Below are positions 1,462 to 58,518 of a stretch of 64,000 bases of DNA, in pieces. How positions within the stretch are numbered: the stretch's first letter is position 1; each line of letters starts with the position of its first letter. Source of the DNA: Streptomyces sp. MST-110588 (lineage in GTDB: Bacteria > Actinomycetota > Actinomycetes > Streptomycetales > Streptomycetaceae); assembly GCF_022695595.1 (NCBI RefSeq), contig NZ_CP074380.1, positions 2,039,501-2,103,500 of the forward strand. The letters are read 5' to 3'. The translations under genes and the position numbers were made by a program. The notes under the pieces were generated by a model, which saw nothing but the letters and a program-made list of their open reading frames with translations, was not told the DNA's origin and did not search any database.

Positions 1462-2921
1462 CTACAGGTCCAGTCCCGTCATGACCATCACCCGCTCGTA
1501 CGTGTAGTCCTCCATCGCGAAGCGGACGCCCTCGCGCCCGACGCCGGACAGCTTCGCGCCGCCGTAGGGCATCTGGTCGGCGCGGTAGGACGGTACGTCG
1601 CCGATGATCACGCCGCCGACCTCCAGCGCGCGGTGGGCGCGGAAGGCGGTCTGGAGGTCGTGGGTGAAGACGCCCGCCTGGAGGCCGTACTTGGAGTCGT
1701 TGACGGCGGCGAACGCGGCGGCCTCGCCCTCGGTCCTCGTCACCGTGAGCACCGGGCCGAAGACCTCCTCACGGGCCAGGGTCACCCCGGCGGGCACCTG
1801 CGCCAGCACGGTCGGGGCGTACGAGGCGCCCTCGCGCTTGCCGCCCGTCAGGAGCTGCGCGCCCGCCCGTACGGCCTCCTCCACCCACGCCTCGACGCGG
1901 CACGCGGCCTCCTCGCTCACCAGCGGGCCGACCTCGGTCGCCTCGTCGGACGGGTCGCCGGTGACCTGCGCCTCGACCGCCGCGACGATCTTCGGCAGCA
2001 GCCGGTCGTACACGGACGCGTCGGCGATCACCCGCTGCACCGAGATGCAGGACTGGCCGCCCTGGTAGTTGGAGAAGGTGGCGATACGGGACGCCGCCCA
2101 GTCCAGGTCCGCCTCGCTGGAGTAGTCCGCCAGGACCACGGCCGCGCCGTTGCCGCCGAGCTCCAGCGTGCAGTGCTTGCGCGGCACCGACTCCATGATC
2201 GCGTAGCCGACCTTCTCGGAACCGGTGAAGGAGACCACCGGCAGCCGCTCGTCCTGGACGAGCGCCGGCATCCGGTCGTTGGGCACCGGGAGGACCGACC
2301 ACGAACCGGCGGGCAGATCGGTCTCGGCCAGCAGTTCGCCCAGGATCAGCCCGGAGAGCGGGGTGGCCGGGCCGGCTTGAGGATGATCGGGGCGCCCGCC
2401 GCGATCGCCGGGGCGACCTTGTGGGCGCACAGGTTGAGCGGGAAGTTGAAGGGCGCGATGCCCAGGACCGTGCCGCGCGGGAAGCGGCGGGTCAGCGCGA
2501 GCCGGCCGGTGCCGCCCGCGTCGGTGTCCAGGCGCTGCGCCTGGCCGCCGTTGAAGCGGCGGGCCTCCTCGGCCGCGAAGCGGAACACCGACACCGCACG
2601 GCCGACCTCGCCGCGCGCCCACTTCATGGGCTTGCCGTTCTCCGCGGAGATCAGCCGGGCGATCTCCTCCGTACGCTCCGCCAGCCGCCGCTGCACATGG
2701 TCCAGGGCGGCGGCCCGTACGTGGGCGGGGGTGGCGGCCAGCTCGGCCTGTACGGCGACGGAGGCGGCGACGGCCTCCTCGACCTGGGCCTCGGTGGGGA
2801 CGCTCACCGTGCCGACGAGCCGGCCGTCCCAGGGGGAGGTGACGTCGAAGGTCTCCTCGCCGGCGGCCTGGCGGCCGGCCAGCCAGAAGGCGGTGGGGGC
2901 AGCAGCGCTGGGGGTTGGCAC
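1462..2921 (-). CDS. aldehyde dehydrogenase with single-base frameshift
   Basis: NAD(P)-dependent aldehyde dehydrogenase, about 486 residues once the frame is repaired. The N-terminal part (2921 to about 2372) carries FWLAGRQAAGEETFDVTSPWDG and the cofactor region GIAPFNFPLNLCAHKVAPAIAAG..IILKPA. The C-terminal part is in the next frame and carries VVSFTGSEKVGY, catalytic Glu in CTLELGGNGA, and catalytic Cys in YQGGQSCISVQRV. The two frames join at the run ccgggccgg (2367-2375): one extra base would restore KPAPATPLSGL. All catalytic residues survive, so a sequencing error or very recent mutation is likelier than old decay. The GTG start at 2921-2919 has AAGGG about 13 nt upstream. Its neighbour is a PucR-type regulator, and the locus also holds gabT, so a role in succinate- or other semialdehyde oxidation is inferred only. 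Confidence 0.85.
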
Positions 2922-3214
2922 AGTGGATCCCGGCCCTTCCGAAATGGTGGGGTACGTGCGGTGTCGCGCAGCCCGGCGGGCGGCGCACCACGGGGGCGGT
3001 GCGCTGCTCCACTCGGCCGGCGCGGTGCCGCTTCGCAGCGGCGTTCGAGACTCCCCCACCGTAGAGCCGCATCCCCGCCACGCCCTTTGTCCGGGGCGGC
3101 ACACTTTCCCCCGCTCCCCCGCCGCTTTGGCGCGTACGGCCGGGCAGGTCCGGTGCGGCGGCGGAGGCAGTCGGCGCCACACCGGCCTCCACGCCCGTCA
3201 CCGCACGGACCTTT

Positions 3215-3297
3215 CCTGTACGGGCCTCTTCGCTGTATGGGCCCCTTCGTTGTGCGGGCCCCTTCGTTGTGCGGGCCCCTTTCCTGTACGGGTCCGG
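3215..3297. repeat. 17-bp tandem repeat, about 5 copies
   Basis: Five head-to-tail copies of a unit like cgttgtgcgggcccctt fill the 3' gap between the aldehyde dehydrogenase start and the PucR-regulator stop. The third and fourth copies (3248-3264 and 3265-3281) are identical, and the outer ones differ at 2-5 positions. No reading frame across it looks coding. The rest of the 379-bp gap (2922-3300) must hold the aldehyde dehydrogenase promoter but shows no motif I can name. Confidence 0.8.
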
Positions 3298-3300
3298 GGC

Positions 3301-5061
3301 TCACTCCCCCGCCGGGCCCGCGGTCGCCTTCAGGGCGAGCCACAGCTCCATCCGGACGTCCGGGTCGTCGAGGGAACGCCCGAGGATCTCCTCCACCCGG
3401 CGCATCCGGTAGCGCAGCGTATGGCGGTGCACTCCCAGGTCGGCGGCGGCGGCGTCCCACTGCCCGTGCCGGGAGAGCCAGGCGCGCAGGGAGGCCACGA
3501 GGTCGCCGCGGCCGGTGGCGTCGTGCTCACGCAGCGCCCGCAGCATGCCGTCGGCGAAGGCCCGTACGGCCTCGTCGGCCAGCAGCGGCAGCACCGATCC
3601 GGCCGCCACGTCCTCGTGCTCCACCAGCGTCCGGCCCCGGCGGCGGGCGACGGAGAGTGCCTGCTCGGCCTGGCGGTGGGCGTTGGCGGCGGCCATCGGC
3701 CCCGACGGCGCGGACACCCCGACCGTCAGGCTCGCGCCGTCCCGCTCATACGTTCCTCGCTCCCCGGCCGCCCCGTGTCCCGCCCCGGTCCGCATCCCGC
3801 TCCCCGTCCCGGACCGCACCCCATCCCGAGCATCCCGAACGTCCCTGGCATCCCGAATATTACGAGCGTTCCCGACCTTTCGGACATCCAACGCCGCGGC
3901 GTACTCCGTGCAGGCGTCCACCGCCGCTCCGCCGTCCGGCGCCACGACGATCAGCCGGCCGCCGTCCGGCACGGCGAGCACCGCCTCGCCCGTACGGGCC
4001 GCCGCGGCCTCCATCACCTCGGCCAGCGCGTCCAGCGCCGCCACGAGCCCGCCGGTCCCACCCGACGCGCCGGCCCCACCGACCCCGCCGGACGGCTGCT
4101 CGGCGTCGGCAGTCGGCGCCGCCTCGGCCACCACGATCCGGAACGGCGCGTCCAGCAGCCCGCCGTACAGCCGGCCCGCCACCGCCCGCGCGTGGTCCGG
4201 CTCACCGGCCAGCAGCATCCGCAGCACCGCGGCGCCCAGCCGCTGCTCGGCCTCCTGCAGGGCCCGGGACCGCTCGGTGGTCAGGGTGAGCAGGGCGACG
4301 GCGGAGTGCACGGCGTACCGCCCGGCCGTGCCCAGCGGCGCGCCGGTGCCGACGGCGAGGACCCCGCGCGCCCGGCGGCCGGTGCCCAGTGACTGGAGCT
4401 CGACCCGGTCGCCGCCCTCGGCGTCGCTGACCACGGAGCTGGCCGGCGCCGGGCGCTCGCGCAGCCGCGCCACGTCGGCGGTGAGCCGGGCGGCGCGGCG
4501 GGCGGCCCAGTCCGGGGCGGCGGCCAGCACCGTCCCGGTCGCGTCGTACAGCGCGGCCCAGCCGTCGAGGTGGGCGGCGAGCCGGGCCAGCAGCTCGGCG
4601 GGTCCCTCGGCGCCCAGCGCCGCCCGCGTCAGCTCGCGCTGCGCCTCGAACCCGGCGGTCACCGCGCGGTACTGGTCGGCGGCGACGGCGGCCGAGACGG
4701 CCTTGCTGATGGCGATGAACGGCGTACGGCGCGGTACGCCCAGCAGCGGCAGCCCCGCTTCCCGCGCCGCCTCGATCAGCGCCCGGGGCACCTCGTCGTA
4801 ATTGACGCCGACCGCGAAGCCGAGGCCGACCACCCCTGCCTCCGCGACCCGCCGCACGTACCTGCGGGCCGCCTCCGGATCCTCCGCCTCCAGCTTGAGC
4901 GCGGTGATCAGCAGCAGCTCGCCGCCTTCCATGTACGGCACCGGGTCGATCAGCTCGCTGGCGTGCGCCCAGCGCACGGGCACCTCCAGCCGCCCCTCAC
5001 CCGCGAGCACGGTCAGCTTGAGCGCGGTGTGGTTGACCAGGGCGGCGAGGGTGAGCGGCAT
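3301..5061 (-). CDS. PucR/CdaR-type transcriptional regulator
   Basis: A 586-residue regulator. The N-terminal PucR sensor domain (about 1-130) reads LTLAALVNHTALKLTVLAGEGRLEVPVRWAHASEL..YMEGGELLLITALKL. The C-terminal PucR helix-turn-helix reads LRAWLSRHGQWDAAAADLGVHRHTLRYRMRRVEEILGRSLDDPDVRMELWLAL, almost at the end. Such proteins control purine, amine or GABA catabolism genes in response to small molecules. I chose the ATG at 5061-5059 because GAAGG lies just upstream. An in-frame start 19 codons earlier lacks a site. Between the domains is a repetitive linker (VRKVGNARNIRDARDVRDARDG, about residues 385-406) coming from an imperfect DNA repeat. It lies directly upstream of the frameshifted aldehyde dehydrogenase on the same strand, so that gene is the likely target. 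Confidence 0.9.
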   Translation of the reverse strand: MPLTLAALVNHTALKLTVLAGEGRLEVPVRWAHASELIDPVPYMEGGELLLITALKLEAEDPEAARRYVRRVAEAGVVGLGFAVGVNYDEVPRALIEAAREAGLPLLGVPRRTPFIAISKAVSAAVAADQYRAVTAGFEAQRELTRAALGAEGPAELLARLAAHLDGWAALYDATGTVLAAAPDWAARRAARLTADVARLRERPAPASSVVSDAEGGDRVELQSLGTGRRARGVLAVGTGAPLGTAGRYAVHSAVALLTLTTERSRALQEAEQRLGAAVLRMLLAGEPDHARAVAGRLYGGLLDAPFRIVVAEAAPTADAEQPSGGVGGAGASGGTGGLVAALDALAEVMEAAAARTGEAVLAVPDGGRLIVVAPDGGAAVDACTEYAAALDVRKVGNARNIRDARDVRDARDGVRSGTGSGMRTGAGHGAAGERGTYERDGASLTVGVSAPSGPMAAANAHRQAEQALSVARRRGRTLVEHEDVAAGSVLPLLADEAVRAFADGMLRALREHDATGRGDLVASLRAWLSRHGQWDAAAADLGVHRHTLRYRMRRVEEILGRSLDDPDVRMELWLALKATAGPAGE

Positions 5062-5219
5062 GGGACCTTCGGGGTGCTGAGGAGAAACGGCGCAGTACTG
5101 AGCCGGCGATTCGGCCACGGCGGCACGGACCCGGGCGCACTACTCCGTCCCGTATGAACCGCCACCGTCGATTCTGCCTCAGCGGAGGGTTCCGGGGGCC
5201 GTTTCGAGCCCTACCGTCC

Positions 5220-5639
5220 GTGAGCAGCTCGCTCTACCTCATCGACACCTCAGCTCTCTTCCGCATCCTCACCAAGCCGCTTCATGAGCGGTGGCGCGAA
5301 CAGATCACGACGGGCATCATCAGCGTGTGTCCGGTCATCGAGTTGGAGTTCCTGTACTCCGCCCGCTCACCGGCCGATCGGCTGGAGAAGCGCCAACTGC
5401 TCAAGGAGACGTTCTCCTGGGTACCGATGCCCAGTGACGCATTCGAAAGAGCCCAAGAACTCCAACAGCAGCTCACCGAAGCAGGACAGCACCGTTCCGC
5501 CGGAGCGATCGATCTTCTGGTGGTTGCCACCGCGGAGCGCGAGGGGCTCGTCGTGTTGCATGACGACCGCGTTTATGAATCGGTCTCGCGTCTGACCGGC
5601 CTGCCGGTGAAGCGGGTGGCAGAGCCGGCTGCCGAGTAA
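5220..5639 (+). CDS. PIN-domain protein (VapC-like)
   Basis: A 139-residue PIN-domain protein, the fold of VapC RNase toxins. The acidic metal-binding set is visible: Asp9 in YLIDTSALFR, Glu41/43 in VIELEFLYSAR, Asp98 in AIDLLVVATA and Asp115/116 in VLHDDRVYE. The start is GTG at 5220, since the family begins a few residues before the LIDTSAL strand. The open frame runs 22 codons further upstream. VapC genes normally follow a small antitoxin gene, but the 158 bp upstream back to the divergent PucR start hold no plausible antitoxin. It may therefore be an orphan, controlled by a distant antitoxin, or a non-toxic PIN nuclease. No strong ribosome site is visible. Confidence 0.8.
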   Translation: MSSSLYLIDTSALFRILTKPLHERWREQITTGIISVCPVIELEFLYSARSPADRLEKRQLLKETFSWVPMPSDAFERAQELQQQLTEAGQHRSAGAIDLLVVATAEREGLVVLHDDRVYESVSRLTGLPVKRVAEPAAE

Positions 5640-5751
5640 ACGCCCGAGGTCGGGCCCGACCCGGCCTCGCCGCTCGGACCCGTATAAGAACCTGGTCCCG
5701 CCCCACTGATGCAGCCGTATACGGAACCGGACCCGACCCCACCACCCCCGC

Positions 5752-8004
5752 TCAGGACCGCAGGTCCACCAGCACCGGGGGCGCGTGCTCGCCGCGTACC
5801 GAGGTGACCGACAGCACCGCGTGGCCGGCCGGTACGGAGTTGGCCAGGTCGGAGGCCGACCACCGCTCGCGCTCGACGGTCCGTACGGTGACGGCCTTGG
5901 CGGTGACGGCCTTGCCGGTCACCAGTTGGCGCAGGATGTGCAGGGCCTTCATCGCCGCCCCTTCGGCGATGACCTGCCGGTCGGTCACGTCCCGCGTCTG
6001 GACCCACTCCTTGCCCCACACCTCGGCGAACCGCGCGCCGTCCCACGTCGTGACGCCCGCGAAGGCCATCCGGCAGCCGACGGCCCCCAGCAGCGCGCTG
6101 CGCCGCGCCTCGGGAACCTCGTCCAGGGAGCGCAGCGTGAGCACCGCGCCGGCGTTGGCCGAGCGCAGCCGCTGGAGACCGCGCAGCGCCTCGGCGGTGA
6201 TCACGTGCGAGGCGTCGTCCAGGACCACGCAGGCGAACAGGGAGCGGTCGCCGCGGGCGACCGCGCACTCCGTGAACTGCGCCAGCACCAGCCGCGCCAG
6301 CAATCGGGAGGCCTCGGCGTGGCCGCGCTCGGGCAGGTCGATACGGACCCGCAGCGGGTGGTCCAGGGCGCGCAGCGAGACCTGGCGGGTACGGCCGGAG
6401 GTGTCGAAGAAGCCGGCGAAGGCCGGACGGTCCAGGAGGGCGATCCGGTCGGCGAGCAGTTCGCCGACGTCACCGCCACGGCCCCCTTGGCGCTCGCGTG
6501 CGTCCAGTTCGCGCAGCAGGGACTCCTCCCCCGCCGCCTTGAGCTTGGTCCGCAGCCGGGCCAGCACGGCGGGCGACCCGTCCAGCAGCTCGCGCAGTTC
6601 CGCCACGGCGGGGAAGCGGCCGTACGCCGTGTGGAAGGGCCCCAGGAGCTGCGCGAGCGCGGTGGCGGCGCGCCGGCTGTCACCGCCGGGCAGGGTCGCG
6701 GTCAGGTCGCCGACGAGCGCCTCGGCGAGGATGCCCGCCGCCTCGTCCGGGTCGGCCGTACCGCCGTACAGATCCAGGTCACAGTCCGGGTCGGGGCCGC
6801 CGATCCGGACCACCACATCGAAGGCGTCGTCCGGCACCGGGCTCGACCCGGCCGCGCCGACGGCGACCACGGCACACTGCCCCGCCAGCGCCTGGAGGCA
6901 CATCGCCTCCACGACCGGCCGCACCAGCCGGCTGGTCTTGCCGGCCCCGGGCGGCCCGACGGCCAGCAGGGACGTGCCCAGCAGGGCGGGGTCCAGGGCG
7001 ATGCCGGCGCCCCGGTGCCCGTAGGGGTTCCGCGGGTCCTCGGCGGCGGTGCCGATGCGGACCTGGTGGGCCAGCAGGTCGTGCCGGGCGGAGCGGGCGG
7101 GCAGGTCGCGCTGACCGGAGGGGTGGGCGCAGGCCGCGGCGCCGTGCCGCAGCACGGTGTCCGTGAAGGCGGCCAGGGAGTTCGCGCCGGTCCGTACCGA
7201 ACGCCAGGCGCGCTCGATACGGGCGGCGTCCACGTCGTTCATACGGCCCGAGCGGGCCTCGGCGGCGAGCCGGTCGGCGGCGTCCGACGCCCCGTGGGCG
7301 CGCAGCTCCGGCCACTGGGCACGGTCCGCCGCGGGCTCGGGCGCGGCCTGCGGACGCCGGTCCCGTACGCGCCGCAGCAGGGGCAGCACGAACCGGCGCC
7401 CCACCTCCCGCCAGCGGCCCAGCCGTCCGAAGACGACCACCAGGAGCGCGATGCACAGGCCGTAATAGATGTAGGTGGCCCAGGTGTACGCCTGGATCCC
7501 GTCGTCCGTCGTACGCCAGGAGTCGGGCGTGAGCACCGCCAGTGGCCACACCCAGTAGTTGCCGAGGTAGCCGTTCCACAGCAGCGACCACAGCAGCCAG
7601 CCGCACAGGAAGGAGATCAGCGCGCCGACGATCAGTTGCCGCGCCGGGACCCGGTCCGGCTCCTCGGGGGCCTTGGGTACGTGCCCGTACGCCCAGATGC
7701 CGGGCGCGGTCGCCCGGCGCGGGGTGCGCAGCCAGCGGACGAGGGGCGGCTCGGCGGTGGGCTGTCCGGCTGCCCGCTGTACGGGCTCCCCGGGCGGTAC
7801 GGCCGGCCGCGCCGGAGGAACCGGAGGCGCCGCAGGCACCGGAGGAATCCGGACGGACGGCGGGACGGAATCGGAGGCCGGTAAGGGAGCGGGTGACGTC
7901 GGAGGCGTGGCCGGCATGGGAGGCGCGGCCGGACGCGGCACCCGCCGCCCGGACCGTGTCCCGGACCGTGTGTCGTGTGCCTCGTGCGTGCCCTCGGTGT
8001 CCAT
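5752..8004 (-). CDS. VirD4/TraD-like membrane-anchored ATPase
   Basis: A 750-residue protein with a Pro-rich N-terminus (about 1-120), two membrane segments (about 124-146, LIVGALISFLCGWLLWSLLW, and about 172-194), then a P-loop ATPase domain. Walker A is GPPGAGKTS at about 350-358, and a Walker B-like strand reads LFACVVLDDASHVI. The overall order matches type IV coupling-protein-like ATPases (TraD/TraG/VirD4 group), which pump DNA or protein. Here there is no relaxase or conjugation gene nearby, so the function is unknown. The ATG at 8004 has GAGGG 7 nt upstream. The frame extends upstream through a repeat tract that I exclude. The dispensable-looking Pro linker and the surrounding catabolic genes suggest a conserved chromosomal gene rather than a plasmid remnant. 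Confidence 0.75.
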   Translation of the reverse strand: MDTEGTHEAHDTRSGTRSGRRVPRPAAPPMPATPPTSPAPLPASDSVPPSVRIPPVPAAPPVPPARPAVPPGEPVQRAAGQPTAEPPLVRWLRTPRRATAPGIWAYGHVPKAPEEPDRVPARQLIVGALISFLCGWLLWSLLWNGYLGNYWVWPLAVLTPDSWRTTDDGIQAYTWATYIYYGLCIALLVVVFGRLGRWREVGRRFVLPLLRRVRDRRPQAAPEPAADRAQWPELRAHGASDAADRLAAEARSGRMNDVDAARIERAWRSVRTGANSLAAFTDTVLRHGAAACAHPSGQRDLPARSARHDLLAHQVRIGTAAEDPRNPYGHRGAGIALDPALLGTSLLAVGPPGAGKTSRLVRPVVEAMCLQALAGQCAVVAVGAAGSSPVPDDAFDVVVRIGGPDPDCDLDLYGGTADPDEAAGILAEALVGDLTATLPGGDSRRAATALAQLLGPFHTAYGRFPAVAELRELLDGSPAVLARLRTKLKAAGEESLLRELDARERQGGRGGDVGELLADRIALLDRPAFAGFFDTSGRTRQVSLRALDHPLRVRIDLPERGHAEASRLLARLVLAQFTECAVARGDRSLFACVVLDDASHVITAEALRGLQRLRSANAGAVLTLRSLDEVPEARRSALLGAVGCRMAFAGVTTWDGARFAEVWGKEWVQTRDVTDRQVIAEGAAMKALHILRQLVTGKAVTAKAVTVRTVERERWSASDLANSVPAGHAVLSVTSVRGEHAPPVLVDLRS

Positions 8005-8035
8005 CCGGTGCCCTCGTCCCCCTCCTTGAGCCACG

Positions 8036-8118
8036 AAAAAGCCGTGAAGCCATGAAGCCATGCAGCCGCACAGCCGTGAAGGCCGGAGCCTGCAAGCCGC
8101 GAAGCCGTAAGCCGTGTC
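8036..8118. repeat. degenerate 8-9 bp repeat tract (aagccgtg family)
   Basis: Many imperfect copies of gaagccatg / aagccgtg follow each other between the divergent starts of the VirD4-like gene and gabT. The remaining intergenic sequence up to 8294 (8119-8294) should hold the gabT promoter. I see no clear -10/-35 pair in it. Confidence 0.65.
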
Positions 8119-8294
8119 CGGCCCCTGGGGCCTCACCCGTGCTCAATGTAGTGCCCGCGCTCCGTCTCTATGTCCGCCGAGGACAACGCAACACGCCCAC
8201 TTCTCCCGAACGGAACATGCCCGAGTCCGCCACGCCCGCCTAGCCTGCGAGCACAACCCCTTCAGTACGTCCCGTTCCACCCCAGGAGACTGCC

Positions 8295-9644: not shown

Positions 9645-9931
9645 TCCCTCACCAGGGCCCCGTGACCCGCCCCCGGCTCCCTCCGTCGCCGCCTCCTCAT
9701 CCCCCTCCGTTCCCGGCGCATGACGTGAAGAAGATGTGCGGGGGCGATGGCGGCCGGGTGTTCCGGCTGACGGACGGGCCCTGTCTGCCGTACGGTTTTC
9801 GCAGATGAGAGAAACACCCCGCTCGCAGGGGACTGCGAGTGACGCCCGGCCGGCGCTTCCCCGGCTCCGGCCCGGCCGTGCCCTGGCGCACGACACCGGG
9901 GCCCCGGGCCCCGGATTTCCTCACCGATCGG

Positions 9932-10754
9932 ATGGCCGCCCGCCCCACACCCCCGGGGCGCGCGGACCACCGGTCATCCCGGCCGTCCCGGAACCACCCC
10001 CCCTGTTCCGGGACGGCCGACCCCTCCCCGAGGCCGCCGGCTCACCCAGGGGACGGTCTACGCGCTCGGCGCCCTCCTGTCCGCCCTCCTCTTCACCGTC
10101 CTCGCCTGGCAGGTCGTCTCCCACGGCCCGCTGCGCACCCTGGACGAGCACCTCGGCCGTACCCTCGCCACCAGCACGCCCCTCACCAGGCTGCTCCCCA
10201 CCTCCCTGGCCGGACTCTTCGCCGACCTGGGCAACACGGCGGTGGCCCTGCCGGTCCTCGCTCTCTGCGCCGCATACACCGCCTACGCCGCACATACCGC
10301 CCGCCCGCCCCGGCCCTCAGAGCCCGAACAGGCGAACACCCCCCACGACCGCCGCTGGTGGCTGCCACCCCTGGCGGCCCTCGCCACCATGGCCGCCGTC
10401 CCCGCCCTGGTCGTCCCCCTCAAGGTCTGGCTCGCCCGCCCCGGCCCCCCGCCCATGGTGGCCACCGGCGCACCCGACAACTTCTTCCCCTCCGGCCACG
10501 CCGCCACCGCCGCCATCGCCTACGGCGCCGCCGCCCTCCTCCTGGCCTGGCGCCACCCCCGCGCCCGCCGCCCCCTGGCCGCCGCGGCCGTACTCCTCAA
10601 CCTCGCCGTAGGCATCGGCCTGGTACGCCACGGCTACCACTGGCCCCTCGACGTCACCGCAAGCTGGTGCCTGGCCGGCATTCTTCTCCCGGCCTTCTCA
10701 GCGGCCCGCGCCCGCTGGTCGCCGCCGTCCCGCTGGTCGCCGCCGCCCCGCTGA
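9932..10754 (+). CDS. PAP2-family phosphatase, probable frameshift near its start
   Basis: Membrane PAP2 (phosphatidic-acid-phosphatase type 2) protein. The three family motifs are present: KVWLARPGPP (K-x6-RP), FPSGHAAT, and LVRHGYHWPLD (R-x5-H-x3-D), along with five or so hydrophobic segments. They lie in a frame that is open from 9843 to 10754 but has no ATG/GTG/TTG before 10242. That GTG would delete the first membrane helix (TVYALGALLSALLFTVLAW). An ATG at 9932 in the neighbouring frame gives a plausible N-terminus that joins the PAP2 frame if one G of the run 10049-10052 is removed. So an inserted G (assembly error or mutation) is inferred. The C-terminus ends in an 18-bp repeat (10713-10748). 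Confidence 0.7.
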
Positions 10755-10841
10755 TCCGGCGCCCTCCCCCGGAGTGGCACCCGCCCAACCGGAAGTCCCG
10801 GTGGGAAGGCCGGGTCCGTGCCCCGAGTGCACGTGCGCGTA

Positions 10842-14387: not shown

Positions 14388-14392
14388 GGTTC

Positions 14393-15187: not shown

Positions 15188-16128
15188 CAGACCAGGTCCT
15201 CCGTCCCGGACTTGCGGATGTAGAGGGTGACCACCGCGAGGATGGCCGCCATGAGGATGAAGGACAGGGCCGCGGCCGTCGGATAGTCCAGGACCCGCAG
15301 GAACTGGGACTGGATGACGTTGCCGATCATCTTCTGGTCGGTGGACCCGAGCAGTTCGGCGTTGATGTAGTCGCCCGAGGCCGGGATGAAGGTCAGCAGC
15401 GTGCCGGCGACCACCCCCGGCATGGACAGCGGGAGGGTCACCTTGCGGAAGGCGGTGACCGGACGGGCGTACAGGTCGCCCGCCGCCTCCTGGAGCCGGG
15501 GGTCGATGCGCTCCAGCGAGCCGTACAGCGGCAGGACCATGAACGGCAGGAAGTTGTACGTCAGTCCGCAGACCACCGCCAGCGGCGTGGCCAGCACCCG
15601 GTGCCCCTCGGTGATCCCCAGCCACCTGGTGACGTCCAGGACGTGCAGGCCGTTCAGTACGCCGACGACCGGGCCGCCGTCCGCCAGGATCGTCTTCCAG
15701 GCGAGCGTACGGATCAGGAAGCTGGTGAAGAAGGGCGCGATGACCAGGACCATCACCACGTTGCGCCAGCGCCCGGCCTTGAAGGCGATCAGATACGCCA
15801 GCGGGTAGCCCAGGAGCAGACACAGTACGGTCGCGGTGGCGGCGTACAGGACGGAGCGAACGAACTGCGGCCAGTACGTGCCCAGCGCGTCCCAGTAGGC
15901 GGCGAAGTGCCAGGTGACCTTGAAGCCCTCTTCCAGGGAGCCGGTCTGCACGGAGGTGGACGCCTGGTAGACCAGGGGCGCGGCGAAGAAGACGAGCAGC
16001 CACAGGATGCCGGGCAGCAGCAGCCAGTAGGGGACCAGGCGCTTGCGGGCGGTGCGGGCGGTGGACCGGGGCGTGGGCTGCGGGGTGGGCTCTCCGGACG
16101 TCCGGGGAGGCACGTCGGTGCTGCTCAT
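15187..16128 (-). CDS. potB: polyamine ABC transporter permease PotB
   Basis: A 313-residue permease with an N-terminal cytoplasmic tail (about 30 residues), then about six membrane segments beginning [26 protein letters not shown]. The EAA loop reads [39 protein letters not shown]. It acts with PotC as the heterodimeric channel. Its ATG overlaps the potA stop (ATGA), and its stop overlaps the potC start, so the three are translationally coupled. Length and order are typical of potABCD operons. Confidence 0.93.
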
Positions 16129-17392
16129 GCGGGCCCCTCGGCGGTCTCGTCGGTCTCGGAGGTCTCGTTCGTCCCGCCGGTTTCGTTCGTCCCGTCGGTT
16201 TCATCGGTGATCGCGCCCGCGGTCATGTCCTGGGAGGCGTCCAGCCCGAAGGTGTGTGCGGGGTTCCAGTGCAGGACCACGTCCGCGCCGGGGACCATCC
16301 GCGTGTCGCGGCCGGTGTTCTGCTCGTAGACGGACAGCTCTCCCGCTCCCGGGACCTGGATGACGTACTGCGTGCAGACGCCGAGGAAACCGGCGTCCTT
16401 GATGCGGCCGGGCAGCCGGTTGTGGCCCTCGGCGATCGTTCCGGCGTCGTCGGCGTGGGTAAGGGTGATCTTCTCCGGGCGTACTCCCGCCAGGATCTTC
16501 TCTCCCCTACGGACGGTCCCTGTACGGCCGGTCCCTGTACGGACGGTCCGGGTACGGCCGGAGCCGGAGCCGGCGCGGCATCGGCGCGCGGGCAGCCGAA
16601 GTTTCGTTTCCCCGGCCTTGAGCAGCAGCTCGTCACCGTCGGCCGCCACCACCTCGGCCTCGATGAGGTTGGAGGTGCCCAGGAAGTTGGCGACGAAGGT
16701 GGTGGCGGGGTTCTCGTACAGATCGGCGGGGGCGCCGAGCTGCTCCACCCGGCCGCCGTTCATCACCGCGACCGTGTCGGCCATCGTCATGGCCTCCTCC
16801 TGGTCGTGGGTGACGTGGATGAAGGTGATGCCGACCTCGGTCTGGATGCGCTTGAGTTCGAGCTGCATCTGACGGCGCAGCTTGAGGTCCAGGGCGCCCA
16901 GTGGCTCGTCCAGGAGCAGCACCCGGGGGTGGTTGATCAGGGCGCGGGCGACCGCGACGCGCTGCTGCTGTCCGCCGGAGAGCTGCTGCGGCCTGCGGCG
17001 GGCCAGGGGGCCGAGCTGTACGAGGTCCAGCATCTCCTCGACCTGCTTCCTGACCGACCTGACGCCGCGACGGCGCAGGCCGAAGGCGACGTTCTCGAAG
17101 ATGTCCAGGTGCGGGAAGAGCGCGTAGTTCTGGAAGACGGTGTTGACCGGGCGCTTGTAGGGGGGCAGCGCGGTGACGTCCTGCCCGGCCAGCTCGACCG
17201 TTCCGGTGGTGGGCTCCTCCAGGCCGGCGATCATGCGCAGGGTGGTGGTCTTGCCGCAGCCGGAGGCGCCCAGCAGGGCGAAGAAGGAACCCGCGGGACG
17301 GTGAGGTCCAGCGGGTGCACGGCGGTGAAGGAGGAGCCGTAGGTCTTGCTGATCCCGGTGAGGCGGACATCGCCTCCGGAGTGCTGCGTCAT
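16125..17392 (-). CDS. potA: polyamine ABC transporter ATPase PotA, single-base frameshift
   Basis: ATP-binding subunit of the polyamine importer. From the ATG at 17392 the first frame gives [26 protein letters not shown]. The rest, from [19 protein letters not shown] (Walker A) on, is one frame over. One extra base in gtcccgcggg (17290-17297) would restore [14 protein letters not shown]. Downstream all motifs are intact: Q-loop [12 protein letters not shown], signature [16 protein letters not shown], Walker [14 protein letters not shown]-loop VTHDQEEAM. The C-terminal regulatory domain carries an extra 15-bp repeat insertion (16511-16570, residues like [16 protein letters not shown]) and a Thr/Glu/Asp-rich tail. 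As potB and potC downstream are intact, sequencing error is the likeliest cause. Confidence 0.88.
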
Positions 17393-17579
17393 CTGTGGTC
17401 CCGGGGTCGGAGGTCGGGCGGCGGGGGCTGCCGGGCGTGGGGGTGTCGGGCGTGGGGGGTGTCGGGCGGCGGGCAGGCGGGAAGGTGGGGCGCCGGTGCG
17501 CTGTCATGAGGCGGGGCGGAGGCCGGAACGGTGCGTCACATCGTGCGTCGCATCGGGACGTGCGCGGTTCCGGCGGTGC

Positions 17580-37618: not shown

Positions 37619-37623
37619 TGATT

Positions 37624-42858: not shown

Positions 42859-43728
42859 TCAGGCCTGCTCGGCGTCCGCGGCCGGCTTCTCGGCCTCGGC
42901 GGCGGGGGCCTCGGCGGGCTGCTCGGTGACGGCCTCGGCCTCAGCCTTCTTCTCGCCACCTTCGAGCAGGTCGCGCTCCCACTCGGCGAGCGGCTCGCCG
43001 GCCTTCTCGCCCGGCTTCTGGTCGCCGGTGGCGACGCCGGAGCGGGCGATGAGGCCCTCGGCGACGGCGTCGGCGATCACGCGGGTGAGCAGGGTGACGG
43101 AGCGGATCGCGTCGTCGTTACCCGGGATCTTGTAGTCGACCTCGTCCGGGTCGCAGTTGGTGTCGAGGATCGCGACAACCGGGATGTTGAGCTTGCGCGC
43201 CTCACCGACGGCGATGTGCTCCTTCTTGGTGTCCACGATCCAGACGGCGCTGGGCACCTTCTGCATCTCGCGGATACCGCCGAGGGTCTTCTCCAGCTTG
43301 GCCTTCTCGCGGGAGAGGACGAGGAGCTCCTTCTTGGTGAGGCCGGAGGCGGCCACATCCTCGAAGTCGATCTGCTCAAGCTCCTTCAGGCGCTGCAGGC
43401 GCTTGTAGACGGTCGAGAAGTTGGTCAGCATGCCGCCGAGCCAGCGCTGGTTCACGTAGGGCATGCCCACGCGGGTCGCCTGCTCGGCAATGGCCTCCTG
43501 GGCCTGCTTCTTGGTGCCGACGAACATGACCGAGCCACCGTGGGCCACGGTCTCCTTGACGAACTCGTAGGCGCGGTCGATGTACGACAGCGACTGGAGC
43601 AGGTCGATGATGTAGATGCCGTTGCGCTCGGTGAAGATGAAACGCTTCATCTTCGGGTTCCAGCGGCGGGTCTGGTGCCCGAAGTGGACGCCGCTCTCCA
43701 GCAGCTCCCGCATCGTGACGACGGCCAT
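42859..43728 (-). CDS. rpsB: 30S ribosomal protein S2
   Basis: A 289-residue S2 with [47 protein letters not shown] and the second signature [53 protein letters not shown] Glu/Ala-rich tail of about 45 residues ([30 protein letters not shown]) is typical of actinobacteria. AAGGAG is 7 nt before the ATG. Upstream on the minus strand, TACACT around 43928 may be its -10 box, but the -35 is not convincing. Confidence 0.98.
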
Positions 43729-44060
43729 GGCCGTACTCCTTGTGTTACTCGGTTCCACCGCGACCGGTCGGCCGTGGTGCCTGACGCCCCGGCGCGCCTG
43801 CCGGGGAAGGAACCTTTCGGGACCTTCCGGGGACCGAGGGGCGCGGCCACCTGCTGCCCTGACGGGACTGTCGTGCTGGTGGCGGGGCGTGCGAAGTCGA
43901 CCCGGTGACCCGGATCGCCACAAGAAGTGTACGGGACCGCCGACGCGCCGGGCGACATGCGTCTTTCGGTCACGTACGGGTGACGCAGTTACCCACAACC
44001 CGTCGGTAATCCCCAGATCCGTTCCAAGATCCCCACGGCGGGGCGAACTGCGCCACGGTC

Positions 44061-49564: not shown

Positions 49565-49622
49565 ACCTCGGCTCTCCCCCGCTCGCCGTGCTCCGCTGTG
49601 TCACGCTGTCCGATGCCTGACC

Positions 49623-51853: not shown

Positions 51854-52001
51854 TCGGCACCACCTCCGGCACCGACTGTGACGGCTCCGGCCGAATCCAT
51901 TGGATCTTGGTGGATTACTGGCCGGTTGTGGAAAACTCCGTCACCCGCGCGCACCGGGCGCCGGCGGCTCCGGTGCCGCCCCGCCTCGGCCGAACCCCAG
52001 G

Positions 52002-52310
52002 TCAGCTACCCGGAAGGTCGAGGTCACTCTTGTTCAGCTCCTCGATGTTCACGTCCTTGAACGTGAGAACGCGCACCTGCTTGACGAAGCGAGCCGGCCG
52101 GTACATGTCCCAGACCCAGGCGTCGGCCATCGAGACCTCGAAGAACACCTCGCCCTGAACGGAGTGCACCTGCATCTCGTAGTCGTTCGTGAGGTAAAAG
52201 CGACGTTCCGTCTCGATCACATACTTGAACAGCCCGACGACATCGCGGTACTCCCGGTAGAGCTTCAGCTCCATCTCGGTCTCGTACTTTTCGAGGTCCT
52301 CGGCGCTCAT
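52002..52310 (-). CDS. DUF2469 family protein
   Basis: A 102-residue actinobacterial protein, MSAEDLEKYETEMELKLYREYRDVVGLFKYVIETERRFYLTNDYEMQVHS...VFFEVSMADAWVWDMYRPARFVKQVRVLTFKDVNIEEL. It is very strongly conserved across the phylum and always near rplS/sip/yraN. The function is unknown. GGGATCTGCC precedes the ATG, so the ribosome site is weak. It lies between the NUDIX gene and yraN on the same strand. Confidence 0.95.
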   Translation of the reverse strand: MSAEDLEKYETEMELKLYREYRDVVGLFKYVIETERRFYLTNDYEMQVHSVQGEVFFEVSMADAWVWDMYRPARFVKQVRVLTFKDVNIEELNKSDLDLPGS

Positions 52311-52348
52311 GGCAGATCCCCTTCAGCCGTGCGTCCCCCTATTGTGCG

Positions 52349-52924
52349 TCAGGCACTCTCGGTCTCCAGGACCACCGGCGCACTAGGGGGCCCTTCGTCG
52401 AGCAGCGTGCGCAGCAGCTCGGCGAGTCTGGTCGGATACACCGTCTCATGCGACGCGGAGAGTTCCTCCGAAGTCCACCACCTCAGTCCCGAGACACTGC
52501 GTCGCTCCAGCTCTGTCTGCCCAGCGGTTTCGGTGCTAGTCCCTTTCGTACGTGCCAGGTAGTACCACTCGTCCTGGTTCCAGCGCCGCCCGTCAAAGGG
52601 AAAGGAGCAGTGGCGCTTCCACAGCACCGGGCCCAGTTCGATCCCGGTGATACCCGTCTCCTCCGCCACCTCCCGGCGTGCCGCCTCTTCCCGGCTCTCC
52701 GCCCCCTCCAGTCCGCCGCCCGGCGTGAACCACCAGGTGTGGGTGGGATCGCCCGGCTCGTAGCCGTGCAGCAGCAGGATCCGGTCGTCGGGACCGAGCA
52801 GGACGACGCGGGAGACCTGCCGGGTCACGACCTCCTCCCCCATAGGCGTGACCGTCACCGACTCGCCTCCGGCAGGCTCACTGCTCACGGGAACTGCACT
52901 CATAGGTTCGGTCCGCTCGCTCAT
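52349..52924 (-). CDS. NUDIX hydrolase
   Basis: A 191-residue NUDIX protein. The box is exact: G-x5-E-x7-REVAEETGI from Gly70 to Ile92 (GGLEGAESREEAARREVAEETGI). The fold is preceded by VVLLGPDDRILLLHGYEPG and followed by WKRHCSFPFDGRRWNQDEWYYLAR. It hydrolyses a nucleoside-diphosphate-linked substrate that cannot be named. The ATG at 52924 overlaps the repaired sipZ stop (ATGA), so it is coupled to the signal peptidase operon. Confidence 0.93.
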   Translation of the reverse strand: MSERTEPMSAVPVSSEPAGGESVTVTPMGEEVVTRQVSRVVLLGPDDRILLLHGYEPGDPTHTWWFTPGGGLEGAESREEAARREVAEETGITGIELGPVLWKRHCSFPFDGRRWNQDEWYYLARTKGTSTETAGQTELERRSVSGLRWWTSEELSASHETVYPTRLAELLRTLLDEGPPSAPVVLETESA

Positions 52925-53684
52925 AGGCCGGCGCCCTGCTCTCCGGTACGGGCACGTCGTTCCCGGCCGCGGCCCCACCGGTCGGCGATCGGCCCGTACG
53001 CCGCGCCTCCCAGGATCAGCACGGCGCCGACCACCACCGAGATCGTTATGAGCCGCAGCGGCCCGGGGTGGAGGTGCCGCCGGGCAGCGCCGCGAAGCTC
53101 GCCGGCCGCTGCACCATTCCGAGCTCGCCCGGGGGCCACGCCCGGGCGTCCACCCGCGCGCTCACCGCGCTGCTCGGCACGGAGCCGTGACTGCTGTCCT
53201 CAAGGTGCACCCGTGAGTCCATGGAGCCCAGGCGGCGGTCGCCGAGGAGAAACAGTTCTCCCGGAGGGACCTGGGCGGAGAATCGGGTCGGTGAGGCCGG
53301 ACCTTTGGCGTGCAGATACGGTTCGTCGACCGGTTTGCCGTTGACGGTGAGCCGGCCGTCCTTGCCGCAGCAGGCGATCTTGTCGCCGCCGACGCCGACG
53401 ACCCGCTTGACCATGGGGCTGTTGCCCCACGTCTTGTCCGAGAACACCACCACGTCGCCGCGGCGCACCTCCGCGCCGTCCACTTTCTGGGCCAGAACCC
53501 GGTCTCCCGCCCCGATCGTCGGCTCCATCGAGTCGGTCGGCACGGTGTACGGGCGGTAGAGCAGTGCCCCCCATACGAACCCGCCCAGGAACAGCACACA
53601 GCCGACGGCCACGGCCAGACCGGACAGCACCCTGCCCCGGGTCCGTCCGCGACCGCCGCTTCCGCGCTCCTTGTTGCCGCTCAT
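52921..53684 (-). CDS. sipZ: type I signal peptidase (SipZ position), single-base frameshift
   Basis: Signal peptidase I with an N-terminal membrane helix (LSGLAVAVGCVLFLGGFVWGALLY), Ser52 in VPTDSMEPTIGAGDRVL, the Lys in PMVKRVVGVGGDKI, and GDRRLGSMDSRVH (box E). The frame ends at 53046 after ...GGTSTPG. The expected C-terminal helix, PLRLITISVVVGAVLILGGAAYGPIADRWG, continues one frame over to a TGA at 52921. One extra G in the run at 53060-53068 restores it and places the stop in ATGA overlap with the NUDIX gene, which supports the repaired frame. In Streptomyces the fourth sip gene is known to have a C-terminal anchor. Confidence 0.88.
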
Positions 53685-53779
53685 CCCAGCGCTCCCGCCC
53701 CGCGGGGCGAGCCCGCGTCGAAGATCTGGGACGGCACCCTACCGGGGGCTGCCTCCACCGGTCAGCCTGCAGGAGAGCG

Positions 53780-53890
53780 GATCGGCTGCCAGTGATCGGC
53801 TTCTGCTGATCAGCTCCTACTGATCGACCTGCACCGATCCCGCCTTACCGACGGCCCTTGCCCATCGGCCCTCACCGATCAGCCCCTGCC
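53780..53890. repeat. 14-bp tandem repeat, 8 degenerate copies
   Basis: Eight consecutive units beginning GATCGGCTGCCAGT (53780), mostly 14 bp with one of 13, differing at 3-6 positions, run from the sipZ-sipY gap into the last codons of sipY (stop 53872). The GATC core is conserved in the first five. It probably arose by slippage, and a structural RNA role cannot be excluded. Confidence 0.7.
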
Positions 53891-54975
53891 GGCCGTTCGG
53901 CCCCGCTCCGGGCCACGTCCTCACACGAGAGCCGCGCCAGGATCCGCCGACGGCGCCACAGCACGATCGGCACCGCACCCACCAGACCCAGCGACACCGG
54001 GGCCGCCGCCATCGCCTGGCTCAGTCCTGGCTGGTCGAAGGTGTCGGGCACCGGCAGCGTCGACCAGCGGTCGATCGGCCAGGCGATGGTGAAGGCACGG
54101 CCCACGACCTCGTTCACCGAGACCGTGCCGCCCCCTTCCAGGTCCTGGTGGTAGCGGGAGTCACGCGAGTCCTGACGGTGGTCACCCATCACCCAGATAC
54201 GGTCCTTGGGCACCTTGATCGCTTCAAAGGGCTTGTCCCCGCAGGGGCTGTTGCCGGGGAAGAGGTAGGAGCTCTCCGAGAGCGCCTTGCCGTTGACCTT
54301 CACCGGTCCGGCGCCTTCGCACTCCACGGTGTCCCCGCCGACCGCGATGACCCGCTTGATCAGGTCTTTCTCTTCGGCGGACGGCATCAGCCCGATGAAG
54401 CTGAGCACCTTCTGGACGACATTGGGCTCAGGGGTGGGGGTGCCCTCCAGCCAGTGTCCCGGGTCGTGGAAGACCACGACCTCGCCGCGCTCCGGCTTCG
54501 CGCCGAACCAGGGGGTGAGCTTGTCCACCAGCACCCGGTCCCCGCGCTGCAGCGTGTTCTGCATCGAGTCGGACGGGATGGAGAACGCCTGCACCAGGAA
54601 GGTCTTGATCAGCAGGGCCAGCAGCAGCGCGATGCCGATGAGGATCGGCAGCTCTTTCCAGAAGGCACGCGGCTTCTTGCCCTTCTTCACGCTGCCGCTC
54701 TCCTCCTCGCCGACCGGGCCGGACTGCTCCGATGCACCCGAATAACCCGATGCACCCGAATGATCTGATGCACCTGAATGACCCGCTGTCCCTGATCGGC
54801 CCGACACGGCCCCAGGACCTGACGCAGCCGATCGATCCGCTCCGTACGGCAGGCCGGCCGCCTGCTCCGGTTGTGCGGCGTTCGCCGCCGGATCCGGGGA
54901 CTTACCGCGCCTCTCCGGCTCCTCGGGCTCTTCGGTTCCGGACCGCGCGCCGACCGCCAAGTCCCCCACATCCAC
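53872..54975 (-). CDS. sipY: type I signal peptidase (SipY position)
   Basis: A 367-residue signal peptidase I cutting Sec/Tat precursors outside the membrane. It has a long disordered N-terminus (about 1-105) containing an 18-bp DNA repeat (54731-54784, three copies of a GHSGAS-type peptide). An anchor helix follows (LPILIGIALLLALLIKTFLVQAF), then Ser137 in IPSDSMQNTLQRGDRVL, Lys in DLIKRVIAVGGDTV, and GDHRQDSRDSRYH. A second hydrophobic segment near the C-terminus (AMAAAPVSLGLVGAVPIVLW) gives the two-anchor topology. It overlaps sipX by 74 bp. Confidence 0.93.
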   Translation of the reverse strand: MDVGDLAVGARSGTEEPEEPERRGKSPDPAANAAQPEQAAGLPYGADRSAASGPGAVSGRSGTAGHSGASDHSGASGYSGASEQSGPVGEEESGSVKKGKKPRAFWKELPILIGIALLLALLIKTFLVQAFSIPSDSMQNTLQRGDRVLVDKLTPWFGAKPERGEVVVFHDPGHWLEGTPTPEPNVVQKVLSFIGLMPSAEEKDLIKRVIAVGGDTVECEGAGPVKVNGKALSESSYLFPGNSPCGDKPFEAIKVPKDRIWVMGDHRQDSRDSRYHQDLEGGGTVSVNEVVGRAFTIAWPIDRWSTLPVPDTFDQPGLSQAMAAAPVSLGLVGAVPIVLWRRRRILARLSCEDVARSGAERPAGADR

Positions 54976-56416
54976 TCCTCACTCCACGCCGCCGCCTGCC
55001 CGATAGCCGGTGCAGGCCCACCACTCCCATAACGAGCGGGAGTTCCGCAGGGGTCGGGAGTACGGACAAACTCTCGGGGGACACACTATGCGGCGCCCTG
55101 CCCGCCGTCGTCCTGGCACCCGGCGCGTCGCCCACCGTCGCGTAGGTGTCCGGCACCTCCAAGCGGCGCCAGTGCTTGACCGGCCAGGCGATGACCACGG
55201 CCCGCCCCACGACGTTCTCCTCCGAGACCGTCCCACGATAGGGCTCGTCCAGGTGGTACCGCGAGTCGCCGGAATCGGAGCGGTGGTCCCCCATGACGAA
55301 GATCCGCCCGGCGGGAACGTTGACCGTGAATTTGATCAGCGAGGGCGGGTTTCCGGGATGGACGTACGGCTCCTGGAGCGGCGTGCCGTTGACGGTGACC
55401 TTGCCCGCCTTGTCACAGCACTTGACGGTGTCCCCGCCGACCGCGACGACCCGCTTGATCAGATCCTGCTCGTCGTCCGACGGCAGCAGCCCGATGAAGG
55501 TCATGACCTCCTTGAACTGCTTGACGACCACCGGATCGTCCTTGCTCTTGGCCTGCTCGCCTTCGAGCCAGTGTCCGGGGTCCTTGAAGACGACGACATC
55601 GCCGCGCTCCGGCTTGGAGCCGAACCAGGGGGTGAGCTTGTCGACCAGCACCCGGTCGCCGATCCGGATCGTCTGCTCCATAGAGCCCGAAGGGATTACG
55701 AACGCCTGTACGAGGAAGGTCTTGAGCACCAAGGCGATGGCCAGCGCCACACCGATGAGGATCGGTATCTCTTTCAGGTAGGACCGGCGCCGACGGCGTT
55801 TGATGCGCCGCGCCTGGCGCCGCCGCTCGGCGCGTCCTCCGGTGGCACGCCTGGTCGTCGGCGCGGGTCCGCTGTCGGCCGACGCGTCGACCGGAGCGTC
55901 GGCCACGGCGCCGGTCACGGCGCCGGTCCGGGTATCGGACGCCAGGGCGTCTACGGGCGTGTCCGCCCCGTACGCTCCCGCTTCGTACCTGCCGGACCCG
56001 TAGGCGCCCGCCTCATCACCATCGGTTCCATACGCGCCGGCCTCGTACCCACCGGTTCTGTACGCGCCCGCCCCGTACCCACCCGATGCGTGCGCCCCGG
56101 CCTCATACCCACCGGTTCCGTACGCCCCCGCCTCATACACACCGATCCCGGGTGTTCCCACCTCATACGCGCCCGCCCCGTACGCACCCGCGCCGTCACC
56201 GTACGTCTCCCCATACGCCCCGCCCCCGTAGGCGTACTCCTGAGGGCCGCGCTCCCCAGGGCCGTACGAACTCGCGCCCGTCCTTGCCCCCGTCCCAGGA
56301 CCTGCCCCCGCCGCCTCCCGCGCTCCCGGCGACGCGCCCCCCACCGCCTCCGCATCCGCCGCGTCCGCTGCCCTGACCCGGCCCGGGGGCCGCCGCCCAC
56401 GCCCCCTGTTACCCAT
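54902..56416 (-). CDS. sipX: type I signal peptidase (SipX position) with repeat leader
   Basis: A 504-residue protein, longer than the about 320 usual for SipX because of a Gly/Ala/Tyr-rich leader (1-190). The core is standard: anchor YLKEIPILIGVALAIALVLKTFLVQAFVIPSGSMEQTIRIGDRVL with Ser245, Lys in LIKRVVAVGGDTV, GDHRSDSGDSRYH, and a C-terminal hydrophobic stretch. The leader holds seven 10-residue repeats (GYEAGAYGTG type, about 83-152). The ATG overlaps the sipW stop by 8 bp. An internal start after the repeats cannot be excluded. Confidence 0.9.
   Translation of the reverse strand: MGNRGRGRRPPGRVRAADAADAEAVGGASPGAREAAGAGPGTGARTGASSYGPGERGPQEYAYGGGAYGETYGDGAGAYGAGAYEVGTPGIGVYEAGAYGTGGYEAGAHASGGYGAGAYRTGGYEAGAYGTDGDEAGAYGSGRYEAGAYGADTPVDALASDTRTGAVTGAVADAPVDASADSGPAPTTRRATGGRAERRRQARRIKRRRRRSYLKEIPILIGVALAIALVLKTFLVQAFVIPSGSMEQTIRIGDRVLVDKLTPWFGSKPERGDVVVFKDPGHWLEGEQAKSKDDPVVVKQFKEVMTFIGLLPSDDEQDLIKRVVAVGGDTVKCCDKAGKVTVNGTPLQEPYVHPGNPPSLIKFTVNVPAGRIFVMGDHRSDSGDSRYHLDEPYRGTVSEENVVGRAVVIAWPVKHWRRLEVPDTYATVGDAPGARTTAGRAPHSVSPESLSVLPTPAELPLVMGVVGLHRLSGRRRRGVRSGCGGLGGRRAVRNRRARGAGEAR
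55961..56170. repeat. 30-bp repeat inside sipX, 7 copies
   Basis: Seven in-frame 30-bp units, consensus peptide GYEAGAYGTG, variable at several positions, coding the disordered leader of the SipX-position signal peptidase. The unit length is a multiple of three, so copy number could change without breaking the gene. Confidence 0.8.
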
Positions 56417-57179
56417 GGGAGCCTGCCGGGTCCGGGCTCCGTATGCCGTCGAAGGACCGCGGCCGGTCCAGCGTCGTCCAGCGGCTCACCGGCCAGCCGA
56501 TCCAGTCGGCCCGTCCGATCACTTTGTCGACCGGGACCACACCGCCTCCTGGTTCGCCGAGATGGTCACGGGAATCCCTGGACTTCGCCCGGTGGTCCCC
56601 CATGACCCACAGCTTCCCCGGTGGCACCACGATGTCGAACTTCACCGAGGACGGTGCGTCCCCCGGAAACAGATAGCCCTCGTCCACGGGCTCGCCGTTC
56701 ACCTTGATCCGCCCCCGTTCGTCGCAGCAGGTCACCCGGTCCCCGCCGACCCCGATCACCCGCTTGACGAAGACGTCGTCGGCGGGCCGGGCCAGTCCCA
56801 GCGCCGCGCCGGCCCCGCGCAGCAGCCCCGTCACCGGATTCCCCTCCGGCTCGTTCTGCACGAAGGACTCCGTCCCGTCGAACACGATGACGTCGCCCCG
56901 GCGCGGTTCACCGCCGAATCGGTACGCCAGCTTGTTGACCAGGACCCGGTCGCCGACCCGCAGCGTGTTCTCCATGGAGGAGCTGGGGATCAGGAAGGGC
57001 TGCACGACGAAGGTGCTGAGCAGCACGACGAAGGCCAGGCAGACCGCGAGAAGCAGTACGGGTCTGCGCCAGGGGCGGGGTATGCGCGCGGAAAAACGCG
57101 CGGAGCGCGACCGCCGCTCCGGCCCCTCGTCGGGGGCGGGGCAGCGATCGCGCTCCGAAAGCTGTGCGTCGGTGTCCAT
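56409..57179 (-). CDS. sipW: type I signal peptidase (SipW position)
   Basis: A 256-residue signal peptidase I, first of the sipW-X-Y-Z run. It has one N-terminal anchor (VLLLAVCLAFVVLLSTFVVQPFLIP), Ser68 in IPSSSMENTLRVGDRVL, Lys in DVFVKRVIGVGGDRV, and GDHRAKSRDSRDH. It lacks a C-terminal helix, as expected for this member. It is downstream of rplS by 44 bp, so it may share its transcript, and its stop overlaps the sipX start. Confidence 0.94.
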   Translation of the reverse strand: MDTDAQLSERDRCPAPDEGPERRSRSARFSARIPRPWRRPVLLLAVCLAFVVLLSTFVVQPFLIPSSSMENTLRVGDRVLVNKLAYRFGGEPRRGDVIVFDGTESFVQNEPEGNPVTGLLRGAGAALGLARPADDVFVKRVIGVGGDRVTCCDERGRIKVNGEPVDEGYLFPGDAPSSVKFDIVVPPGKLWVMGDHRAKSRDSRDHLGEPGGGVVPVDKVIGRADWIGWPVSRWTTLDRPRSFDGIRSPDPAGSHG

Positions 57180-57223
57180 CGGGCCCTGAGCCTATCCGGC
57201 CGGGCCCGGACGCCGGACGGGTG

Positions 57224-57571
57224 TCAGTTGTCGCGCTTCTCCTTGATCTTCGCGGCCTTGCCACGGAGGTCACGGAGGTAGTACAGCTTGGCGCGACGGA
57301 CGTCACCGCGGGTCACGAGCTCGATCTTCTCGACGATCGGCGTGTGCACGGGGAAGGTGCGCTCGACGCCGACGGAGAAGCTGACCTTGCGGACCGTGAA
57401 GGTCTCGCGGACGCCCGAGCCCTGACGACGGATGACGACGCCCTTGAACTGCTGCACACGGGAGCGGTTGCCCTCGATGACGCGCACGTGGACGTTGACG
57501 GTGTCACCCGGACGGAAGGCCGGGATGTCGCTGCGCAGCGATGCGGCGTCGACGCTGTCAAGAAGGTGCAT
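57224..57571 (-). CDS. rplS: 50S ribosomal protein L19
   Basis: A 115-residue L19 with the signature [70 protein letters not shown]. The ATG at 57571 gives the conserved start [25 protein letters not shown], and GCAGG lies 4 nt upstream. It follows trmD in the usual rpsP-rimM-trmD-rplS order. Confidence 0.98.
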
Positions 57572-57587
57572 GACCTGCTGCTTTCTT

Positions 57588-57611
57588 CGTTGATGCCACA
57601 GGTCATCAACG
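57588..57611 (-). promoter_or_regulatory. perfect hairpin just upstream of rplS
   Basis: CGTTGATG (57588-57595) and CATCAACG (57604-57611) form an 8-bp stem with an 8-nt loop, ending 17 bp before the rplS start. A second hairpin, CCCCTG/CAGGGG at 57662-57676, lies after the trmD stop and may be a weak terminator. The first is a candidate leader element for L19 autoregulation, which is inference from position. Confidence 0.55.
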
Positions 57612-57703
57612 GAAATAGGGGGTGTTGTTTCGGATGCCGTGCTGTCGGACGGGCGTCGTTCCCCCTGTGGCAGGGGCGCGCGTCGAACGCACACAGCAGC
57701 GGC

Positions 57704-58518
57704 TCATTCTTCCACGGCCTCGCCCGTACGCCCAAATCGGCCGTCCGGTCCCTGGCCCACGGTCCAGCCGAGGGCCGCGAGGATCGCCCGGTCGTGCTTG
57801 TCGAAGGCGGCCGGGTCGGTGCGTTCGATGAGGTCGGGACGGTTGCGATCCGTACGGCGAAACGCTTCGTCACGGCGCCAGCGGGCGATCTTCCCGTGGT
57901 GGCCGCTGATCAGGACCTCGGGGATGGAGCGGCCACGCCACTCGGGGGCTTGGTGTACACCGGGCCCTCCAGAAGGTCGGCCATCGCTCCGGGGGCGAAG
58001 GAGTCGTCCTGGTGGGAGGCGGAATTGCCCAGGACGCCGGGCAGCAGGCGGGCGATGGCCTCGACCATCACCAGTACGGGGGCCTCGCCGCCGGCCAGGA
58101 CGTAGTCACCGATGGACACCTCCCGTACGTCCACGCGGTCGCTGTACTCCTCGATGACGCGGCGGTCGATGCCCTCATAGCGTGCCGGGGTGAAGATCAG
58201 CCAGGGCTTCTCGGAGAGTTCGACGGCGAGCTGCTGGGTGAAGGGTTTGCCGCTGGGAGTGGGTACGACGATCACCGGATCGCCGTCCCCGGAGGCGAGG
58301 ATCTCGTCCAGCGCCTCACCCCACGGCTCGGGCTTCATGACCATGCCGGGACCGCCGCCGTAGGGCGTGTCGTCGACGGTGTTGTGCTTGTCGTGCGTCC
58401 AGTCGCGCAGGTCGTGGACCCGTACGTCGAGCCGGCCGCGGGCGCGGGCCTTGCCGACGAGGGAGACGTTCAGCGGTTCCAGGTACTCGGGGAAGATCGT
58501 GACGACGTCGAGGCGCAT
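57704..58518 (-). CDS. trmD: tRNA (guanine-N1)-methyltransferase TrmD, single-base frameshift
   Basis: SPOUT methyltransferase making m1G37 in tRNA. The first frame gives [69 protein letters not shown]-knot [32 protein letters not shown], to [11 protein letters not shown], then breaks into [10 protein letters not shown] and stops. One frame over, the expected end continues: [79 protein letters not shown], stopping at 57704. One extra G at 57942-57948 restores it. As trmD is normally essential, a sequencing error is almost certain. Confidence 0.93.

Follow-up and report, generated by a model that had tools for sequence, protein, structure and literature searches.

The confirmed frame breaks in the coding DNA of Streptomyces sp. 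MST-110588 (genome G000) are best read as residual base-count errors of the assembly, with a probability that we put at about 0.96, and the genes concerned would then be intact in the organism. The density of such breaks is about 7 to 17 times that found in three relatives, according to the strictness of the filters. The stretch of DNA analysed, which we call the window, is 64,000 bases long (G000:C1:2039501–2103500), and has a GC content of 68–75% in 4 kb steps. It belongs to a genome made up of a single contig of 7,915,503 bases, which is 98.33% complete. The genus is Streptomyces: the best match of TrmD among named genomes is to Streptomyces monomycini, and among proteins it is to S. platensis, at 94% in each case.

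Sites were tested using the proteins of three congeners, designated G036, G031 and G006; in a 944-base stretch of one gene of the window, the identity with G036 is 86%. The alignments were frame-aware, meaning that frame changes are permitted at a cost. A break was kept if it had at least 50% identity across 25 residues on each side and the support of at least two relatives, and genes longer than 1200 amino acids or overlapping masked bases were left out of the count. The sample consists of two regions. The first is roughly the surroundings of the window, with 176 kb of conserved coding DNA, while the second lies about 3.3 Mb away, with 70 kb, and was compared with two relatives. A weaker frameshift penalty gave many events in all genomes, and a stricter penalty, combined with the flank-identity filters and two-relative support, was used instead. 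Plain counting of genes with HSPs in two frames was also rejected. By this measure 11 of 174, 9 of 143 and 8 of 125 genes were broken in G000, compared with 1–2 of 117–152 for pairs of relatives, and when G000 served as the query the relatives themselves scored 9/199, 5/154 and 5/135. These raised scores probably come from the broken frames of G000 being used as queries.

The sites in the window are listed in Table 1. An earlier note on this DNA had proposed that five genes are broken. Four of the breaks, in the aldehyde dehydrogenase, potA, sipZ (in its tail only) and trmD, are supported by two or three relatives, but the fifth, in PAP2, is not. The note also held that one site, probably meaning PAP2, needs a base to be removed; this found no support, and all four confirmed sites shift as losses.

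Table 1. Frame breaks and related sites (window coordinates, except for the last row, which gives genome coordinates)
Feature	Position	Strand	Remarks
Aldehyde dehydrogenase in two frames	1462..3201	-	break at about 2371; three relatives
PAP2-family phosphatase frame	9840..10754	+	PAP2 domain in one frame; break at 10049-10052 unconfirmed
potA-like ABC transporter ATPase, N-terminal end in other frame	16125..17507	-	break at about 17292-17298; two relatives
Difference from relatives upstream of rpsB	43793	-	residue 192 of an overextended ORF; S2 match begins at residue 215-217
sipZ signal peptidase I	53046..53684	-	break at about 53068; two relatives
trmD, tRNA (guanine37-N1)-methyltransferase, split in two frames	57836..58518	-	break at about 57941; three relatives
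Sites with own run one base shorter than that of a relative	1985744, 2041871, 2113106, 2139720, 2194554, 2197803		read from alignments

The domain matches agree with the break in the aldehyde dehydrogenase, which matches Pfam Aldedh in two pieces, with profile positions 6–162 in the 2346–3182 frame and 164–458 in the 1462–3201 frame. In the 460-residue frame of potA, the family name of which is taken from the G036 orthologue, the ABC_tran match begins at profile position 10. The S26 domain of sipZ (profile 8–168 of 168) is whole in one frame, and the break therefore touches only the C-terminal tail; the G036 orthologue is sigpep_I_bact. The two PF01746 pieces of trmD, covering 2–160 and 156–195 of a 195-position family, are the sole two matches in the G000 genome, while trmD is one full open match in 58 of the 60 other genomes of the genus. 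The exceptions are G001, where it is in pieces on two contigs, and G050 (82% complete), which has none, so that two adjacent pieces on one contig are found only in G000.

The difference at 43793 is probably in the leader of rpsB, judging from where the S2 match begins, and is probably not a gene break; it was scored as one because crude ORF calling overextends starts. Across 43710–43870 the conservation among the relatives lets the stretch align as if it were coding, and there is a one-base difference from G036 and G031. This stretch may be a conserved rpsB leader.

For PAP2, 11 of the 14 proteins fetched were aligned to 9701–10800, leaving out P0122 (the window's own protein), P0140 and P0155. 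Ten of the 11 homologues align with no frame change and one has a change at 10713 only. It is fairly probable that the gene is not broken at 10049 and is a single frame, with a start that is either unusual or mis-assembled. Two homologues extend over the reported site without a change of frame, P0126 with an alignment from 10017 and P0134 with one from 10041, and P0122, the stored protein encoded by the window, is a single frame of 225 residues. Against this, the frame that opens after the TGA at 9840 contains no ATG, GTG or TTG until a GTG is reached at 10242, and that first start codon sits well inside the conserved part; the start appears to be missing or unusual. The other nine alignments begin at 10065–10086, past the site, and conservation is poor ahead of about 10065, which leaves room for a break upstream.

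The density of breaks was then compared between genomes treated alike. In the first region, G000 has 18 breaks with the support of at least two relatives over the 176 kb sampled, although this count, like the total of 21 and the run statistics below, still includes the site in the rpsB leader, which should be discounted. The same test with the relatives as targets gave 1 in 182 kb for G036, 4 in 173 kb for G031 and 3 in 150 kb for G006. In the second region, G000 has 3 breaks in 70 kb, whereas the two relatives have none, in 65 kb and 76 kb respectively. Pooling the regions gives 21 breaks in 246,650 bases of G000, as against 8 in 645,452 bases of the three relatives (p = 7e-7), or 8.5 and 1.2 per 100 kb respectively. 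With stricter flank identity the counts for G000 and the relatives become 15 and 3 at 70%, and 13 and 2 at 80%. The breaks occur in both regions sampled and are thus not special to the window.

The relatives' eight own breaks are located in G036 on contig C2 at about 2641594, in G031 on C1 at about 2160700–2183600, and in G006 on C6 at about 1108400 and 1253100. It follows that the assemblies or the genes of the relatives are not wholly intact either. Clusters supported by one relative only were excluded before counting, and numbered 32 in G000 and 33, 24 and 14 in G036, G031 and G006 respectively. The excluded clusters in G000 are of mixed sign, 17 being plus one and 15 minus one. In the window, candidate frame changes seen by a single relative lie near 5137, 8264, 37619, 43863, 53685 and 57216. 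A strand bias was considered and rejected: all 18 breaks of the first region lie in genes of the minus strand, but that strand accounts for about 80% of the bases aligned in the region, and two of the three second-region breaks are on the plus strand.

The direction of the shift is mostly the same. Nineteen of the 21 breaks move the frame in the manner of a one-base loss (16 in the first region and 3 in the second). The remaining two, at 1917204 and 1959480, are scored by the aligner as plus one, yet align to the relatives as two-base losses. At six or more of the 18 first-region sites, a relative has a run of the same base that is one longer than the run in G000 (Table 1); some other sites in this region align ambiguously, 2025218 most of all.

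A G/C run of at least 4 lies within 8 bases of 14 of the 18 first-region sites, compared with 16.7% of background positions (p = 2e-8). The earlier note had placed all its sites in G/C runs. This agrees with the wider sample, but the runs in the window are short: the longest within 8 bases is 3 for the aldehyde dehydrogenase, 3 for potA, 4 for sipZ and 5 for trmD, and a run of at least 3 is also found near 57% of background positions. Taken by themselves, the four window sites give the argument from runs little weight, and its strength comes only from the wider sample. We also looked for an overall deficit of long G/C runs in G000 and found none, the run-length spectra being close to those of the relatives. 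Since only a few of thousands of runs would be affected by error, this similarity speaks neither for it nor against it.

Outside the window, the first-region breaks fall in miaB, an FtsK-like translocase, pnp, infB (three), ftsY and thiL, together with a polysaccharide lyase-like gene, serA, ilvB, a GGDEF/EAL gene and a D-2-hydroxyacid dehydrogenase-like gene. Gene names were taken from NCBIfam matches of the orthologues in G036, and the names FtsK, lyase, GGDEF/EAL and hydroxyacid dehydrogenase come from matches below the NCBIfam cut-offs or from domain models. The pnp gene, which has no second copy, is split near profile positions 571–576; two of the infB sites align poorly; the best match of thiL lacks the first 16 profile positions; and in ftsY the NG domain is whole and the break is in the N-terminal part. 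Among the genes struck are four that are essential or almost essential, namely trmD, pnp, infB and ftsY, which indicates that the breaks are indifferent to essentiality. The simultaneous loss of these and the other genes is hardly possible for a cell.

In-frame stops provide a further comparison. Five query runs on G000 gave nine in-frame stops with conserved surroundings, each seen by one relative, and none (0 of 9) has the support of two. With the relatives as targets there were 5, 9 and 3, of which one, in G031, was seen twice.

These results bear on two other explanations. The breaks could be real frameshift mutations, in a decaying or indel-mutator strain, with the genes truly lost. Replication slippage also yields losses near runs, and run lengths are indeed raised near the sites. 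However, the genes struck include the unique trmD and pnp, as well as infB, ftsY, serA and ilvB, and decay should leave nonsense codons beside the frameshifts, where no stop has the support of two relatives. We regard real mutation as very improbable. Alternatively, the genes could be expressed across the breaks by ribosomal frameshifting or polymerase slippage. Some sites do have G/C runs of 4–7, which would suit such recoding, but the corresponding positions in the relatives show no change of frame, 58 of the 60 other genomes of the genus have trmD in one open frame, and the breaks are at unrelated positions in unrelated genes. We regard recoding, too, as very improbable. A living Streptomyces carrying hundreds of true losses in short G/C runs, tolerated even in trmD and pnp through an indel-mutator state or a bypass in expression, is likewise highly unlikely.

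Assembly error is favoured over these because the breaks are in excess of those in the relatives, because they are mostly missing bases and are concentrated at runs, because unique housekeeping genes are struck regardless of essentiality, and because there is no two-relative-supported stop. The points against it are that two of the four window runs are only 3 long, that the G/C run-length spectra as a whole show no clear difference from the relatives, that the relatives have breaks as well, that over half of the excluded single-relative clusters in G000 are plus one, and that the 18 first-region sites include the one in the rpsB leader and the two poorly aligned ones in infB. The homopolymer sequencing error that the earlier note named as the cause is thus upheld by the denser breaks, the hits in unique housekeeping genes, the net losses, the clustering at runs and the lack of stops supported by two relatives. 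The reads would have under-called short G or C runs, and the consensus would have retained the shorter run. Long reads with too little polishing by short reads are their most likely source.

At 5.3 to 8.5 per 100 kb, the sampled rates extrapolate to roughly 370–590 breaks in coding DNA across the genome, if they hold elsewhere and on the assumption that the coding share is the general figure of 88%. Annotation from this assembly would therefore create false pseudogenes. The earlier note had warned of five; false pseudogenes are indeed to be expected, but PAP2 drops out of the list and the breaks extend to both regions sampled. Claims of gene loss for this genome need correction first. The genome stands for its species in the genome set, and its errors can spread from there into comparisons.

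Similar errors have been described. A comparison of PacBio-only with short-read-corrected Streptomyces assemblies gives 70, 295 and 335 differences in three genomes, the vast majority being single-base insertions in homopolymers, that is, bases missing from the long-read assembly (PMC6923854). Those genomes are, like G000, high-GC Streptomyces with missing homopolymer bases. They differ in that short reads decided the matter there, whereas G000 is judged from relatives alone, and the number extrapolated for G000 is somewhat higher than those given in that comparison. A second report, on Kastor, found that false deletions made up most of the indel errors in a nanopore assembly and that they most commonly followed runs of four to five bases (PMC12007338). 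The errors were detected there, as here, through comparison with other genomes, in that case reference genomes. The nanopore example has 59% GC and its A/T runs were most affected, whereas the nearby runs examined in G000 were G/C. The finding is almost certainly an ordinary and known assembly artefact and not biology, and is useful as a warning on the record.

Two further observations concern the genome at large. The gene at 54902–56416 of the window has similar DNA close by, at genome positions 2093536–2094158 and 2096380–2096538, and also at 3486311–3486936, which fits a cluster of paralogues, as expected. The block at about 5706205–5775305 of G000:C1 (L177–L180) has long frames, with translations that by eye are integrase-like, ParB-like and tape-measure-like, and to the eye it looks like an integrated phage.
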